NCBI RefSeq assembly: GCF_028618435.1
Contig: NZ_JAQISW010000003.1
Coordinates: 62,001 to 126,000 of the forward strand
Length of the DNA: 64,000 nt
Reading direction: 5' to 3'
Source: Bartonella sp. MM73XJBT.G
GTDB taxonomy: Bacteria; Pseudomonadota; Alphaproteobacteria; Rhizobiales; Rhizobiaceae
The position numbers and the translations under genes were made by a program. Each line of letters starts with the position of its first letter. The stretch's first letter is position 1. The notes under the pieces are model-generated. The model ran no database searches. It was not told where the DNA came from and saw only the letters and a program-made list of their open reading frames with translations. Below, in pieces: positions 28,403 through 36,550 of the stretch.

Positions 28403-28625
28403 GATAGTCTTTCTTGATTTTTTCTTTGTATAAAATAGCAATTAAAGCTTGCTTTTTATGCTAAAGGCTTTTATACGAGTTCTATCGAATTTTCGGTTAC
28501 GTGACTTTCTTTCCTGTGCGTTCTGCACTTTTGACGAAACTTCTCCCACCTAATTTCGATCTACAACCGTATTGAAGAATTATAGCTTCAGTATACAATA
28601 TAATTATATATCTAAGGAGTTTCCT

Positions 28626-28835
28626 ATGTCTACAGGAACAGTTAAGTGGTTTAATACAACAAAAGGTTTCGGATTCATTCAGCCTAGTGATGGCAGTGCA
28701 GATGTATTCGTACACATTTCCGCCGTTGAGCGTTCTGGTCTTACCAATCTTAATGAGGGGCAAAAAATTTCTTATGATGTTCTTCAAGATCGTCGTTCAG
28801 GAAAATTTGCCGCTGGCAACCTTGCAGCTCTTTAA
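28626..28835 (+). CDS. cspA: Cold-shock protein, CspA family
   Basis: 69 residues, a single OB-fold cold-shock domain with both nucleic-acid-binding motifs (KGFGFIQP and DVFVHISA). It binds single-stranded RNA/DNA and acts as an RNA chaperone. The start is the ATG at 28626, with AAGGAG at a good distance; the frame is open further upstream, but that would give a non-standard N-terminus. The leader between carB and this gene (about 225 bases) could hold the long structured 5' leader typical of csp genes. A strong terminator follows. Confidence 0.95.
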   Translation: MSTGTVKWFNTTKGFGFIQPSDGSADVFVHISAVERSGLTNLNEGQKISYDVLQDRRSGKFAAGNLAAL

Positions 28836-30360: not shown

Positions 30361-31534
30361 AATTTTTAACCTCATCTCTTGTGATTGTTTTTGTCGAATA
30401 TCAATCTATCCAATAAAATATATTAAGGACAAAGCCTATTGATTCAGCAAAAATATTCATGAATAAACATAACGAAAAAATAGAAGCTGCAGATAAAAAT
30501 CAAAAAAGTTCAGTGATTAAATAAATAAATCAGTCTATTGTCATGAGAGATGAAAAACTTGGTGAGCTTTCTCTATCGGAAAATATAAATTTCAAGCTTA
30601 GCGAAGAAATCCACATTAAGAAATTATCTTGTTTGTCCTCTTCTCACTTAAAAAGGGGCGATGCATTCGTTGTTATAAATATACGATAAAAAATGGAATT
30701 TTGGATAAAGCTTATTATATCTATATTTTATTTTCATTTATAGGCAAAAAGCATTATTCTTGCAAGTTTTAGTTGAATTATAATCAATATTTTTCCATAT
30801 AAAGAGAGATTTCTAGAAAATAGACATCCTTATACATTAAAAAATTTAGCTGTTTTTATTGTTTTTGGACATATGTTTCATATAAGAAATTATAAACCAA
30901 AGTCTTCCAAGAAAAACTTATGTCGTATAATATTTTCTCGCAAATTTGAAAGTCTATAGAGACCTTTCATCCTCCTACGAAAATGAACTGATTTGAACTT
31001 CGATTCTCTTTATTTTCTCTAGGCGCAATATAAATCATATTATACTTTATAATCACTTAAGTTACAGTAAATGATATACAGAAAAATATTGATTTATAAT
31101 AATTTTTGGATTCTTAAATTGAATTATCCTCTTGTAAGATTCTATTATTTCAAATCTTCCTATCTGAGATCCTTTAATATCATTGTCTTACATATCAATA
31201 AGCAAGGTTAATGTGTTATAAAACACTAAAGAAAGGAGTAAAAAATATCCCCCTTCTCAAAGGTAAAAACAACCTGACTGAAAGCTGATAAAGAATGAAC
31301 ATACTCAATCTGCTTTTTTATAAGTGTAAAAATAGTTATATAGAGAATCTTATACCATTTTATCAAAACTTTTACGTGATACTGTTCACGGGTATCAGAA
31401 CATTTGGGCACATTGAACAATATTTCTTTAAATAAGCACACAAATTAATAAAATTTTCCTTCTCTATCCAATTTAGAACACTAAAAAAGACCTCGTACTT
31501 TTCAACATAATCGCCCTATAGAATGAAACATTTT

Positions 31535-31768
31535 CTATTTCTCAGCTTTCTTTTTGCCAGAAAATGAAGAAGAGTCTATCTTCTCTGTTGTGTAAATAGT
31601 TCAATTTAAGTTTTTGCTATTAACCACTTGATTAACTTTATAGGTTTTATGGACAATCTTTTACTATTCATCCTCATACTCTCATAAAAAAACACTTCAT
31701 GTATAAAGTTTTACATGTTTTATATCACGCTCCTAAAGACAGTGTTTTTATGGTACAATAGAATAAAC
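31535..31768 (-). pseudogene. Decayed paralogue of the 57-residue small protein
   Basis: The upstream block (31715-31768) and ATG region (31698-31700, MKCFF) match those of 24338-24576. After a frame change the sequence reads HKTYKVN, aligning with RKVYEVN, and ends SSSFSGKKKAEK plus stop (31535-31537). A stop and at least one frameshift break the frame. Alignment was made by eye. Confidence 0.4.
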
Positions 31769-31892
31769 CTCTCTTAAATTCCTCGTTGAGCTTTAATATA
31801 CCTAAAAAAATTTGTTGGATATTCATAAGTTTTGAAATTTTCTCTTATCCATCTTCCCATGCATCACAATTTCTAGGTGCTCTTTTAGGAAT

Positions 31893-31918
31893 AAAAAAAA
31901 GCCGGACAAATGTCCGGC
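31893..31918 (-). terminator. Strong Rho-independent terminator in gene-free DNA
   Basis: GCCGGACA-AA-TGTCCGGC (31901-31918) is a perfect 8-base-pair, GC-rich stem; on the minus strand eight Ts follow. It stands over 1 kb from the nearest protein gene on that strand, which argues for a local transcript. Confidence 0.85.
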
Positions 31919-32011
31919 AAATTTAGAAAATCCTCAGAGATAAAATCAATCTGACAGACCTTCATAAGGGAACACTCAAGAAAATGCAATGGGAGGCAAC
32001 ATAATCAAGAG
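31893..32011 (-). ncRNA. Candidate small RNA, AbcR-like
   Basis: On the minus strand a promoter-like pair GTGCTT (32040-32045) and TACAAT (32017-32022) with 17-base spacing would start a transcript near 32011. It ends with a strong terminator: GCCGGACA (31911-31918 complement), a 2-base loop, TGTCCGGC and eight Ts (31893-31900). The 120-nt product has an unpaired-looking CCUCCCA (31990-31996) near its 5' end, able to mask Shine-Dalgarno sites, and a middle UCAGA...UCUGA hairpin. Size, anti-SD motif and three-hairpin plan recall AbcR (alpha-r15) riboregulators, one of which is activated by VtlR in Brucella; a VtlR-type gene lies upstream on the same strand. No protein frame is evident. Family membership is inference. 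Confidence 0.5.
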
Positions 32012-32016
32012 ATAAC

Positions 32017-32045
32017 ATTGTATGTCATTTTATAATTAGAAGCAC
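32017..32045 (-). promoter_or_regulatory. Candidate sRNA promoter
   Basis: Minus-strand boxes GTGCTT and TACAAT with a 17-base spacer; the -10 box is one base from consensus, the -35 box is weak, which would fit an activator-dependent promoter. Confidence 0.4.
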
Positions 32046-32257
32046 AATAAAGACTTAAGCGTATCTGCTATGCAATAAACACATAGCTTTATTTTTTCAA
32101 TCTTGTATCTCTTTAATTAAATAGGAAGAGATCATCCTCATACGATTGTCTAATTTTTAATGTTATAATAGCCTTCATATTTGAACGCATTTATAAAAGA
32201 CGCTTTATCCCTTTTTGTAAAAATATTTATCCACACAAACGCCTTCCACCTTATGAG

Positions 32258-32710
32258 CTAAAATGGTTTGAGCAACCTTATAAGAGGTATCGATTTTTTC
32301 AGCAAGCTAATCCCGTAAAATAAAGTGAAACCCATACAAACAAGTTTCAAGTTTATTTTTTCTATATACTTTGACATACAGCTATCAGAAAAGTAACCAC
32401 AACCTCTAACAAAAAAATTATTGTAGGATAACAGGCACACTTGTTTTAAAGAGACATCTCTCAAGACTCTCACCTCCTATCTCACGATAGCGCCGTGTGA
32501 ATGTTATAACGATAAGGCCTTTAAATTCCTCTATCTTTACACTTGTGTAAGGAGTATAAACCGCCACTATTAAACAACACTTTACCAGCCTTAAGTATTT
32601 CGACTGTCCTTGGTACTTGAAGCAGTTCACAAAAGGCATGCTTTTTTGTACAATTTTTATCCACGTGTCTTACCCGCTTATGATGTGCTCGTAAATGAGT
32701 TGATTGATTC
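32258..32710 (-). repeat. Degenerate repeat family 1, copy B
   Basis: Minus strand, in order: the ESIN motif (TTGATTGATTC on plus, 32700-32710), AATTTTTATCCAC on plus (32652-32664) read as WIKI, FVNCFKY, IVAVY and TFTRRYREIGGESLERC (plus 32467-32495). Copy C at 36.86-37.14 kb has the same elements in order, including the identical 13-mer. A further TTTATCCAC near 32227 may begin another truncated copy. Short frames are open here but the ESIN part is out of frame with the rest. Confidence 0.45.
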
Positions 32711-32931
32711 GATATAAACAGATTTGGAATGAAAAAAGCTTAAGGTACTCAAGCTTCTAATTCAATATGAATAACGCTATATTATTATAAATCGATAAGT
32801 TGTATACTTACAGCATCATGCAACAAATGATTTTATTGATTCAATGTGGGAAAATTTGAAACAAACGAATATTATGGAGAGCCTTAAGGTGCAAAACAAT
32901 TAATTGTTGCTTATAAATTAAGGCATGAATA

Positions 32932-33837
32932 TTAAAAAGACCACTGACGGGCTTTTAAAAAAATATAATCTCGAAAAGCATTCAACCTTGCCAAGTTCTT
33001 TAAATTATAAGGATAACAAAAAAAAGTATCAAAAGAAGGAATATCAACCATATCAGGAAAAAGACGTACCAAGCGCTCATCATTATTGACGATATAATCA
33101 GGCAACACAGCAATCCCAAGATCACGCATAAGTGCATTCTTTATTGAAATAATATTGTTGATTTGTAGGACTGAAACACGCAATGATCCATCACTTCTAC
33201 CAGCCTTTTCCAACCAATTTAAACCAGACAAATAAGGAGGAACAGGTTCACCAAACGAAATAATACGATGTTCATCGAGCTCAGACAATTTTTCCGGTTT
33301 TCCATAATTTGCAATATACTTTTCCGAAGCATAAACATGCATATGGATTGTAAAGAGTTTTCTTTGTATAAGATCGGGTTGTTGGGGTTGATGGAGACGA
33401 ACAGCACAATCTGCGTGACACATTGTCAAATCAAGCTCTTCATCAGAAAGTAAAAGCTGAACCTGCATATCAGGATAAAGACTAAGAAATTCTGGCATAC
33501 GCTCTGCAATCCACCCAGCCCCCATTCCAAAGGTCGAGGTCACACGTAAATGCCCCGTTGGTTTTGCATAGCTTTCACTTAATTGCAAACGTACACTTTC
33601 AAGTTTCATCAAAACATCATGAGCCGTACGATAAAGAGTTTCTCCCTGTTCTGTAAGAATCAAACCACGCGCATGACGCAGGAATAAAGATACCCCAACC
33701 TCTTGTTCTAAAGCCGATACCTGTCGGGAAACTGCTGATTGAGATAAATGAAGCTTTTGAGCAGCATGTGTAAAAGATCCAGCTGCTGCTGCTGCGTGAA
33801 AAACCCTTAATTTATCCCAATCCAACGGTGGCGCCAC
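32932..33837 (-). CDS. lsrB: LysR-type regulator, LsrB/VtlR family
   Basis: 301 residues. N-terminal helix-turn-helix (DKLRVFHAAAAAGSFTHAA, then LHLSQSAVSRQVSALEQEVG), followed by a substrate-binding-like effector domain. The pattern LTMCHADCAVRLHQPQQPDL, KLFTIHMHVYASEKY and the end IPSFDTFFCYP with KARQWSF closely follow LsrB of Sinorhizobium/Agrobacterium and VtlR of Brucella, which govern envelope and oxidative-stress traits and activate AbcR small RNAs. The start is GTG, with AGGATTAATT before it. It lies 42 bases after trxB and is probably co-transcribed with it. Cys residues in the effector domain could sense redox state, as shown for LsrB. Confidence 0.85.
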   Translation of the reverse strand: MAPPLDWDKLRVFHAAAAAGSFTHAAQKLHLSQSAVSRQVSALEQEVGVSLFLRHARGLILTEQGETLYRTAHDVLMKLESVRLQLSESYAKPTGHLRVTSTFGMGAGWIAERMPEFLSLYPDMQVQLLLSDEELDLTMCHADCAVRLHQPQQPDLIQRKLFTIHMHVYASEKYIANYGKPEKLSELDEHRIISFGEPVPPYLSGLNWLEKAGRSDGSLRVSVLQINNIISIKNALMRDLGIAVLPDYIVNNDERLVRLFPDMVDIPSFDTFFCYPYNLKNLARLNAFRDYIFLKARQWSF

Positions 33838-33879: not shown

Positions 33880-34836
33880 TTAACGCTTAAGCATATCTAA
33901 AAACCGTTCAGCTTCCAATGCAGCCATACATCCCCTTCCTGCGGCTGTTACAGCTTGGCGGAATGTTTCATCTGTTACATCTCCTGCTGCAAAAACACCA
34001 GCAATACTTGTTGCTGTTGAATCCGGTTTTGTCCATAAATAGCCGCCTCGTTTTTGTTTCAGTTGCCCTTCAAACAGAGAAACAGCAGGATCATGCCCAA
34101 TGGCAATAAATATTCCCTCTGCTTCCACTTTCATCTCATGACCTGTTTTAACATTTTTCAAACGTGCCCCTGTTACAACAGCGCCCTTTCTCCCCTGAGC
34201 TGGGAGCCCCACAATTTCCTCGACCACATGATCCCAAAGAACACGTACGTTATTACAAGCAAGTAACCTATCTTGCAAAATTTTCTCTGCCCGAAACTGT
34301 TCTCGCCGATGAACCACACTTACACTTTTTGCTATATGCGATAAATAAAGGGCCTCTTCAACGGCCGTATTTCCTCCCCCTACAACAATAACATCCTTAC
34401 CCCGATAAAAAAAGCCATCACATGTAGCGCAAGCAGAAACACCACCGCCCATAAAAGTCTGTTCACTTTCTAAACCAAGCCAGCGCGCTTGGGCTCCTGT
34501 TGCAATAATCAGTGCATTACAAGAATATTGTGTTCCTAAATCCCCATATAAAACGAAAGGATAATTCAATAAATCTGCTTTTGTAATCGTATCATAGACA
34601 ATTTTTGTCCCCATATTCTCAGCTTGTTTTGCCATTTGTTCCATCAACCATGGTCCTTGAATGGGGTCAGAAAAACCTGGATAATTTTCCACATCCGTTG
34701 TGATTGTCAATTGTCCCCCTTGCTGCAAGCCTGTCACTAAAACCGGTTGGAGCATTGCTCTTGCCGCATAAACCGCCGCTGTATAACCAGCTGGACCAGA
34801 ACCAATAATCAGCAGACGAATATGCGATTGTTCCAT
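33880..34836 (-). CDS. trxB: Thioredoxin reductase
   Basis: 318 residues. FAD-binding IIGSGPAGYTAAVYAARA, the redox pair CATC (Cys136, Cys139), NADPH-binding VVGGGNTAVEEALYLSHIA and the C-terminal FAD motif GVFAAGDVTDETFRQAVTAAG are all present. It reduces thioredoxin with NADPH in the cytoplasm. AAAGGGAATTTA precedes the ATG. The regulator gene lsrB follows on the same strand, linking redox enzyme and redox-type regulator. Confidence 0.96.
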   Translation of the reverse strand: MEQSHIRLLIIGSGPAGYTAAVYAARAMLQPVLVTGLQQGGQLTITTDVENYPGFSDPIQGPWLMEQMAKQAENMGTKIVYDTITKADLLNYPFVLYGDLGTQYSCNALIIATGAQARWLGLESEQTFMGGGVSACATCDGFFYRGKDVIVVGGGNTAVEEALYLSHIAKSVSVVHRREQFRAEKILQDRLLACNNVRVLWDHVVEEIVGLPAQGRKGAVVTGARLKNVKTGHEMKVEAEGIFIAIGHDPAVSLFEGQLKQKRGGYLWTKPDSTATSIAGVFAAGDVTDETFRQAVTAAGRGCMAALEAERFLDMLKR

Positions 34837-35104: not shown

Positions 35105-36550
35105 ATTTTTCAGTTTATTATCAATGTCTGTGCACGTTTTGCGTTGATCATGGGAGGAGCAATGCTTTTGCCAATTTTGGTGGATTTGCATGACAATAAC
35201 CGTAATTGGATAATCTTTCTCTATTCTTGTGCCATAACCACCATGTTAGCAACCCTAATTCTTTTAGCAACGAAGGGGGCTACTTGTCGTTTTTCAGCAC
35301 GACTTGGCTTTATGCTCACTGTTTGTCTTTGGCTTACAGGAAGCATTGTAGGTGCTTTGCCTCTTTATCTTTCCTCTCTTCCCATTTCTCTAGCAGGAGC
35401 CATTTTTGAATCTGTTTCGGGAATTACAACAACAGGCTCCACAGTCCTTTCTGGTCTTGATCATTTATCGCGAAGTATTTTGTTATGGCGCTCTCTCATA
35501 TGCTGGATTGGGGGCATTGGTTTTATCGGTTTAGCCCTCTTACTTTTGCCTTCACTCCGTGTGGGTGGCGTGCGGCTTTTTCATATGGAATCATCTGATA
35601 AATCTGAAAAAATATTGCCTCGTATCAATCAAATTGCTAACGGAATTATCATTGCTTATGTTGGACTCACATTAGCTTGTATGCTTTCTTATTTTGCTGC
35701 GGGCATGAATTTATTTGATGCCATTAACCATGCAATGAGTACAGTCGCAACTGCTGGTTTTTCAACGCATGATGCTTCTTTTGGCTATTTTTCTGATACA
35801 CCAGCCATATTAATTACTTCAACAATCTTTATGTTGCTTTCTGCTTTACCCTTCGTACTTTATGTTAAATTAATCCTTCCTGGACACTCAAAACGTTTCC
35901 TTGACCCACAAGTGATTGTTTTTCTGCATATCGTTATCCTTTTCAGCTTTGCTTTAGCAGCGTGGCTACGGTTTCATGATCATCGCGCTTTCCACTTGAT
36001 TTTTCTTGATGTCATTTTTCATATCACATCCATTATTAGCACCACAGGTTACAGCGCTGAAGATTATCAACTTTGGGGGCCCTTTGCGCTTGGAATTTTC
36101 TTAATTGTTTCTTTTACAGGCGGGTGTGCTGGTTCTACTTCTGGTGGCATGAAAATCAATCGCCTCATTATTCTTTGGCGTATTACACAAACAAATATAG
36201 AAAAACTTCTTTCTCCTAATGTTGTTGTAAAAGCGCGCTACGATCACTCAAATATATCAAACGATGTTGCTCAAGCCGTTTTGTTTTTTGTCTGTCTTTA
36301 TATGTTCTGCCTTGTTATTGGCACTGCACTTTTGCTTACAACCGGTCTTGATTTTACCTCTGCCTTTACAGGAGTCTTAACAGCACTTTCAAATGTTGGA
36401 CCAGGCTTTGGAGATATTATTGGTCCCATTGGGAACTTCTCTACAATCAACGATAATGCTTTATGGATTTTAAGTTTTCTAATGTTAGCTGGACGCCTTG
36501 AAATCATAACAATATTCGTCCTTTTTATTCCCGCTTTCTGGCGTGAATAA
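35105..36550 (+). CDS. trkH: TrkH-type potassium uptake membrane protein
   Basis: A polytopic inner-membrane protein with the four pore-loop repeats of the Trk/Ktr family: SGITTTGSTVL, STVATAGFSTHD, SIISTTGYSAEDY and LSNVGPGFGDIIG; the SFTGGCAGSTSGGMK signature is intact. It imports K+ with the TrkA regulatory subunit, which is not in the window. Start: TTG at 35144 or ATG at 35150 would cut the first membrane helix. The frame continues upstream (FQFIINVCARFALIMGGAM) to an ATT at 35105 preceded by AGGGA with 6-base spacing, then a stop at 35093. An ATT start is therefore proposed; if wrong, use 35144. It is divergent from trxB. Confidence 0.88.
   Translation: MFQFIINVCARFALIMGGAMLLPILVDLHDNNRNWIIFLYSCAITTMLATLILLATKGATCRFSARLGFMLTVCLWLTGSIVGALPLYLSSLPISLAGAIFESVSGITTTGSTVLSGLDHLSRSILLWRSLICWIGGIGFIGLALLLLPSLRVGGVRLFHMESSDKSEKILPRINQIANGIIIAYVGLTLACMLSYFAAGMNLFDAINHAMSTVATAGFSTHDASFGYFSDTPAILITSTIFMLLSALPFVLYVKLILPGHSKRFLDPQVIVFLHIVILFSFALAAWLRFHDHRAFHLIFLDVIFHITSIISTTGYSAEDYQLWGPFALGIFLIVSFTGGCAGSTSGGMKINRLIILWRITQTNIEKLLSPNVVVKARYDHSNISNDVAQAVLFFVCLYMFCLVIGTALLLTTGLDFTSAFTGVLTALSNVGPGFGDIIGPIGNFSTINDNALWILSFLMLAGRLEIITIFVLFIPAFWRE

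Follow-up and report, generated by a model that had tools for sequence, protein, structure and literature searches.

Positions 31893-32013 on the minus strand of the window, a stretch of 64,000 nt from Bartonella sp. MM73XJBT.G, almost certainly hold a small-RNA gene orthologous to AbcR, the family entered in Rfam as ar15 (RF02345). Taken as a whole, the region very probably represents the Bartonella AbcR orthologue, a trans-acting RNA that is probably assisted by Hfq, is placed under LsrB, and targets the ribosome-binding sites of mRNAs. Gene, structure, conservation, orthology, and a conserved promoter block are computed here, and transcription, activation by LsrB, Hfq binding, and repression of targets are expected by analogy with the AbcR RNAs of other Rhizobiales. 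An earlier note on this DNA had proposed an AbcR-like RNA of ∼120 nt on the minus strand. The proposal is upheld by the Rfam match, by genus relatives above the Rfam cut-off, by a Bartonella-built model (R1) that reaches beyond the genus, by gene order, and by an LsrB-box-like palindrome; fold and conservation place the gene at 31893-32013, with a predicted start. The features of the region are as follows.

31893-32013, minus strand: AbcR/ar15-type small-RNA gene of ∼121 nt with a predicted start (RF02345 match, model R1, conservation in the genus).
31893-31918, minus strand: intrinsic terminator, a 7-bp stem with 6 G-C pairs followed by eight T (fold, terminator scan, alignment A1).
31926-31963, minus strand: second hairpin, SL2 (fold; 8 consensus pairs, 3 of them changed on both sides).
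31968-31974, minus strand: aSD2 motif UGUUCCC, between SL1 and SL2 (conserved core UUCCC).
31975-32011, minus strand: first hairpin, SL1, with tandem U.U mismatches (fold and alignment A1).
31990-31996, minus strand: aSD1 motif CCUCCCA in the SL1 loop (sequence, conserved core CUCCC).
32020-32025, minus strand: probable -10 element ACATAC (column correspondence with relatives, relative to a predicted start).
32042-32047, minus strand: probable -35 element TTGTGC (column correspondence with relatives).
32067-32087, no strand assigned: perfect palindrome GCTATG-N9-CATAGC at about -75 to -55, a probable LsrB site judging by its conservation.
32932-33837, minus strand: LysR-type regulator with a GTG start, lsrB/vtlR orthologue (HTH_1 and LysR_substrate domains).
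33880-34836, minus strand: trxB, thioredoxin reductase, upstream of lsrB (TIGR01292, 391 bits, above cut-off).

The RNA read from 32013 to 31893 folds at -32.9 kcal/mol (z -4.3) into three hairpins, and 0 of 200 shuffled sequences fold as well. Two C-rich anti-Shine-Dalgarno (anti-SD) motifs are left unpaired, CCUCCCA in the SL1 loop and UGUUCCC in the linker that joins SL1 to SL2. The former lies on the minus strand where the earlier note had put it, and the internal hairpin and GC-rich terminator with eight T described there are confirmed by sequence, fold, and a terminator scan, which finds one terminator-like site in 31000-33000, at 31893-31918 on the minus strand, against 0.5 expected. 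The terminator pairs are kept through base changes in alignment A1. In the proposed mechanism, an RNA of ∼120 nt would start near 32013 and end at the terminator at 31893, and aSD1 and aSD2 would block the translation of mRNAs for metabolism and transport by pairing with their G-rich ribosome-binding sites.

A search with the Rfam ar15 model, proposed earlier as a check, bears out the assignment in part: ar15 is the best Rfam match in 31500-32600 and is full length (1-112), while its 28.1 bits (E 0.0018) lie under the RF02345 gathering cut-off of 40 bits, and a scan of the whole window shows no family above its cut-off. The gathering cut-off is a curator's threshold and not a trait, and the score of the window copy is read here as divergence rather than as the lack of a defining trait. 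Of the 61 intact-looking Bartonella copies defined below, 47 fall short of this cut-off. In 14 of 71 genus genomes RF02345 scores above it, with 50.9 to 59.5 bits and always at a place that follows lsrB. At E<=1, matches appear in 37 of the 71 genomes (29 downstream of lsrB, 8 elsewhere only) in a search with stricter filters, in which 3 of 14 unrelated control genomes also matched, none above cut-off. The second-best place for RF02345 in a search of the whole own genome reaches 18.5 bits, and the genome therefore contains one ar15 copy at this sensitivity.

For comparison across the genus, the sequence following lsrB was taken from the 71 genomes over a length of up to 3.5 kb (2.6 kb where one contig stopped). 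With a strict motif pattern the sRNA is found in 54 of the 71 loci, and with a slightly looser one in 55; these 55 copies make up alignment A1, from which the covariance model R1 was built. Of the 71 loci, 68 show an R1 match that follows lsrB in the same orientation; 55 of these 68 trained the model, and 13 did not. Copies with 82 bits or more are classed as intact looking (61, comprising 55 training sequences and 6 others) and those with 29 to 58 bits as decayed (7); three loci have no match. The window copy, itself within the training set, scores 146.8 bits. The two weakest decayed matches, at 29.3 and 30.5 bits, score about as high as the best off-place R1 match (30.4 bits), and these two assignments rest on synteny. 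The three genomes without an R1 match at their lsrB loci show no RF02345 match genome-wide at E<=1 either. In several genomes R1 also matches weakly on the opposite strand next to the sRNA (e.g., L079 2794-2898; up to 30.4 bits), perhaps owing to the symmetric terminator hairpin.

The comparison of this spacer among Bartonella genomes that the earlier note had called for thus finds the sRNA in 68 of 71 loci, with the hairpins kept in A1. Among the 61 intact-looking copies the aSD2 core UUCCC is present in 61 (and in 0 of the 7 decayed copies) and the aSD1 core CUCCC in 55, counts in which 55 copies were chosen by a pattern requiring both motifs; in the only six copies free of this bias, the aSD2 core is found in 6 and the aSD1 core in 0. 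In the 54 distinct rows of A1, 99.7% of the paired cells are paired in the standard way. Six of 23 pairs are changed on both sides, compared to 4.1 in shuffles (a level reached by 11 of 500), and 43 cells are changed on both sides, compared to 13.2 in shuffles and 1 to 16 in slid controls; further pair types, at 19 versus 19.1 in shuffles, show no excess. These counts reflect few events, much of them a single split between the B. apis-type clade and the rest. SL1 carries the tandem U.U mismatches in the clade of the window and A-U pairs at the same place in the B. apis-type clade.

Identity to eight relatives amounts to 92 to 98% in the sRNA, 87 to 95% in the promoter block of ∼80 nt upstream of the RNA, 52 to 88% in the spacer, and 65 to 90% in the downstream flank. 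These values bear on whether the locus is a recognizable relic that no longer works in the lineage of the window. Seven genus genomes with decayed copies, three without a match, and the score of the window copy under the Rfam cut-off would fit such a relic. It is nevertheless very unlikely, as conservation in the clade of the window is higher in the RNA than in either flank, the two motifs, the hairpins, and the terminator have all been kept, and the palindrome is perfect. A working AbcR-type gene remains the preferred reading.

Beyond the genus, the regulator was used to collect loci, and the best 80 named loci of a longer list comprise 18 from Bartonella and 62 others. Among these best 80, each of the 18 Bartonella loci has an R1 match that follows lsrB in the same orientation, as do 44 of the 62 non-Bartonella loci at E<=0.01 (51 of 62 at E<=1). 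Sixteen of the best 80, 15 of them non-Bartonella, were given to Rfam; ar15 lies above cut-off downstream of lsrB in 13 of these 16, the exceptions being L123, L140, and L115. At 12 of the 13, an R1 match coincides with ar15 to within a few bases (10 with E<=0.01; L149 and L162 weakly, with E 0.18 and 0.52), and L152 has ar15 above cut-off and no R1 match. In loci of Brucella, Phyllobacterium, and Mesorhizobium the Bartonella-built R1 hence recovers ar15 genes that Rfam confirms, and the Bartonella-derived and the Rfam-derived model converge on one and the same locus. One record titled Bacillus subtilis SK6B4 (L134) also contains lsrB and an ar15-like locus; its R1 score equals that of Pseudochrobactrum asaccharolyticum (L137), and the record is therefore probably mislabelled or mixed.

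This two-way match bears on a further possibility, a different C-rich riboregulator that has similar motifs and is not orthologous to AbcR. Anti-SD loops are known in other sRNA families (PMC3927594, in the part of that paper available), and the aSD2 motif reads UUCCCUUA here and UUCCCCUC in S. meliloti, as far as described in PMC8844928. Against these points, gene order, strand, and box position are the same as for AbcR, genus members of intermediate sequence pass the Rfam cut-off, and the own genome has no second, better ar15 locus, which makes a nonorthologous riboregulator highly improbable and leaves AbcR orthology as the reading followed here.

The adjacent regulator was earlier taken for an LsrB/VtlR-type protein, which agrees with its HTH_1 and LysR_substrate domains and its place beside trxB. 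Its identity is 69 to 71% to the protein that precedes the ar15 genes confirmed by Rfam in the Brucella-group loci L122, L125, and L139, and 63 to 74% to the non-Bartonella loci (among the best 80 of the longer list). NCBIfam shows no LsrB equivalog among the best 25 of its 55 hits for the regulator; the name lsrB/vtlR is thus drawn from synteny with trxB and the 63 to 74% identity and is a probable one. The segment SQSA[VI]SRQV is common to the window protein and the ten relatives shown, and an lsrB-type gene occurs in 71 of 71 genus genomes. The order trxB-lsrB-sRNA is published for Agrobacterium (PMC7486931, as far as that text was available). Matches resembling the cspA thermoregulator, at 34 to 61 bits (cut-off 78), turn up in 17 of 17 loci scanned (e.g., L045 1250-1654, L069 838-1218). 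The window also has an open reading frame (ORF) at 28572-28835, presumably for a cold-shock-like protein.

The distance of more than 1 kb to the next gene on the same strand, given earlier, has to be corrected to 918 nt from the lsrB stop to 32013. Among the intact-looking copies this spacer, stop codon included, ranges from 78 to 2041 nt, with ∼90 nt in many relatives. Within it, 32246-32404 and 32440-32805 are integrase-like blocks (Arm-DNA-bind_3 and Phage_integrase), similar, among the matches listed, to 48 other places in the genome at 67 to 96% identity. They look like a degraded, internally deleted remnant of a mobile element, which may account for the long spacers (365 to 2041 nt) in the clade of the window. 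Downstream of the sRNA, 31083-31246 matches part of the integrase-region block in the opposite orientation, so that integrase-type remnants may lie on both sides of the sRNA.

The promoter pair of the earlier note (32040-32045 and 32017-32022) is weak when taken alone and gives way to the homologous hexamers a few bases upstream, at 32042-32047 and 32020-32025; at the latter, the B. apis-type clade and the Brucella-group loci have GCATAT. A consensus promoter scan over 2 kb yields 10 sites, compared to 10.7 expected, with the earlier pair not among them, and was dropped as evidence because it performs no better than chance. The search for LsrB sites upstream of 32045 that had been suggested leads to the palindrome at 32067-32087, which is LsrB-box-like, conserved, and at the published position. 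Its core ATG-N9-CAT, a palindrome of the type bound by LysR-type regulators (LTTRs), occurs in 60 of the 61 intact-looking copies. In the own genome the full GCTATG-N9-CATAGC is perfect at one place, with one mismatch at 4 further places, and with up to two mismatches at 58 places, compared to 45 for a control.

In S. meliloti, AbcR1 has its own LsrB-bound promoter, and the LsrB consensus GCAT-N3-TG-N3-T lies at -61 to -49 of PabcR1, according to the part of PMC8844928 available. This exact box is found in 14 of the 61 intact-looking Bartonella copies and is absent from the window and the 46 others. The window reads GCAT-N3-AG-N3-C at the place of the box; GCAT-N3-[AT]G occurs in 60 of the 61 copies, and those without the exact box mostly have AG for TG. 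Among the non-Bartonella promoters read (29 of 62), 26 contain GC[AG]T-N3-TG-N3-T starting -57 to -61 from the model start. LsrB/VtlR would bind the palindrome at about -65 and activate a sigma-70-type promoter. Control of the sRNA by LsrB is likely by analogy with these systems.

The promoter block also bears on a reading without any promoter of its own, in which the RNA would be the 3' untranslated region and terminator of the lsrB transcript, a stable RNA perhaps being cut from it. In all 68 matched genus genomes it follows lsrB in the same orientation, in many species only ∼90 nt after the lsrB stop, and the window has no other terminator-like site between lsrB and the RNA. This origin is unlikely, however: across spacers of 78 to 2041 nt, the ∼80 nt directly upstream of the RNA are far more alike than the spacer (identities above), the block holds the palindrome and promoter hexamers common to Brucella-group promoters, and the separate promoter of S. 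meliloti AbcR1 (PMC8844928, as cited above) argues against it as well. The preferred reading is an AbcR-type gene with its own promoter.

Compared to AbcR1 and AbcR2 of Sinorhizobium, Agrobacterium, and Brucella, as far as these are described in the texts available, the window sRNA has the same length of ∼120 nt, three hairpins, two anti-SD motifs, and a terminator, the same position after trxB-lsrB/vtlR in the same orientation, and an LsrB-box-like element near -60. It differs from them in being a single copy instead of a tandem pair, in the tandem U.U mismatches of SL1 in the clade of the window, in a box with AG where the published one has TG, and in its Rfam score below cut-off. SL2 contains about 20 nt more than the RF02345 model, and the difference of aSD2 from the S. 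meliloti motif lies at its 3' side. NfeR1, an S. meliloti sRNA of 115 nt, likewise has anti-SD motifs and periplasmic binding proteins among its targets (PMC8844928, in the part available) and differs in having three identical aSD motifs; it is set apart by description, ar15 being the best among all Rfam families. The Brt1-9 RNAs of Bartonella henselae are also intergenic Bartonella RNAs; compared by description only, they differ in their length of 194 to 203 nt, in the helix-turn-helix (HTH) gene that follows each of them, and in being called genus specific (PMC5387305, in the part available).

Targets were sought among 297 genes of the own genome (the window, 20 stretches of 20 kb, and four ABC loci), a sample that supersedes a test on 63 ORFs. 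Pfam places, some of which fall outside the sample, label 14 of the 297 as ABC binding proteins or permeases; start codons were guessed, and several ABC genes are paralogous. Duplexes of aSD2 are stronger at the 14 ABC starts than at the 283 others (-10.6 versus -8.6 kcal/mol, one-sided p 0.003), and 0 of 60 shuffled motifs do as well, on guessed starts, with paralogues, and with two motifs tested. In the same sample aSD1 shows no ABC-transporter preference (p 0.52, with 22 of 60 shuffled motifs doing as well), and taking the stronger of the two motifs gives none either (p 0.24). As two motifs were tested on guessed starts and paralogues, ABC targeting gains weak support, via aSD2. Silencing of ABC-transporter mRNAs, as known for AbcR, is somewhat more likely than not for this RNA. 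An hfq gene is present in 70 of 71 genus genomes, including the own genome, and Hfq would bind the RNA as it does AbcR in other Rhizobiales.

Several single targets were weighed. Complementarity of thiG to aSD1 (-15 to -21 kcal/mol) is conserved in 30 of 30 loci read, out of 70 genomes with a match. It coincides, in the frame as read, with the C-terminal Gly-Gly codons of ThiS; the conservation is thus attributed to protein constraint, and thiG was rejected as an aSD1 target. The top aSD1 match, ORF 35144-36550, which is taken to be trkH-like, was rejected because its assumed start probably lies inside the coding sequence. In 26 of the 30 acs loci read, out of 64 genomes in which acs matched, GAGGGA directly precedes the start codon; acs is a candidate aSD2 target, although a ribosome-binding site alone could conserve GAGGGA. 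The genome-wide pattern GGGAGG-ATG, with 114 places on both strands compared to 79 for the reversed pattern, is too frequent for use.

A literature search found no report of an AbcR RNA in Bartonella among the papers within its reach, most subscription papers lying outside it; what it turned up were reviews, work on different sRNAs, and papers on unrelated subjects. The B. henselae RNA-seq paper names Brt1-9 and, in the part available, makes no mention of an AbcR-type sRNA (PMC5387305). A B. bacilliformis RNA-seq paper describes seven conserved sRNAs, none of them AbcR, and the terms AbcR and ar15 are absent from its main text (PMC7717549). In PMC3927594, seven other sRNA families are named in a sentence that includes the Bartonellaceae, and SmelC411/412 (AbcR) are absent from that main text. 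The Bartonella sRNA is considered a real, if ordinary, orthologue of a known regulator, unreported as far as the search reached. Elsewhere, double deletion of AbcR attenuates Brucella abortus in mice (PMC5461406), and AbcR1/2 rewire metabolism before symbiosis in S. meliloti (PMC8844928), both according to the parts of these papers available.

The circuit is not complete throughout the genus. Six intact-looking copies (G006, G015, G036, G043, G047, and G048) are without CUCCC; the loop still reads CUCC in G006 and G015, which is not so in the remaining four. In these four (G036, G047, G048, and G043; loci L069, L080, L081, and L076) the aSD1 loop is altered and aSD2, ATG-N9-CAT, and the terminator pattern are kept. 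The terminator pattern is found in 60 of the 61 intact-looking copies. In the decayed copies both motifs and the terminator pattern are missing in 7 of 7, and the palindrome is missing in 6 of 7. A quick trxB-lsrB tree requires two changes for the decayed and lost copies: one clade comprises G010, G037, and G042, beside G015 and G043, and the other comprises the decayed G012, G029, G038, and G041 and the unmatched G002, G007, and G008, joined by a branch with 92% support only. The sRNA is decayed or unmatched downstream of a retained lsrB in 10 of 71 genomes, and the genus can therefore live without it.

A tentative reading, rather less likely than not, is that the AbcR circuit comes apart stepwise: LsrB is kept in 71 of 71 genomes, at least two lineages have a decayed sRNA or none, and four others have lost aSD1. 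If this is true, aSD2 would be the essential targeting motif, and LsrB would have a role that does not involve AbcR and that the genus cannot do without. The Bartonella AbcR together with its promoter box offers a regulator of uptake and metabolism that can be tested directly, both in vector-borne species and in those associated with bees, and the genus, with intact, aSD1-less, decayed, and absent copies, forms a natural series for separating the parts of the circuit.
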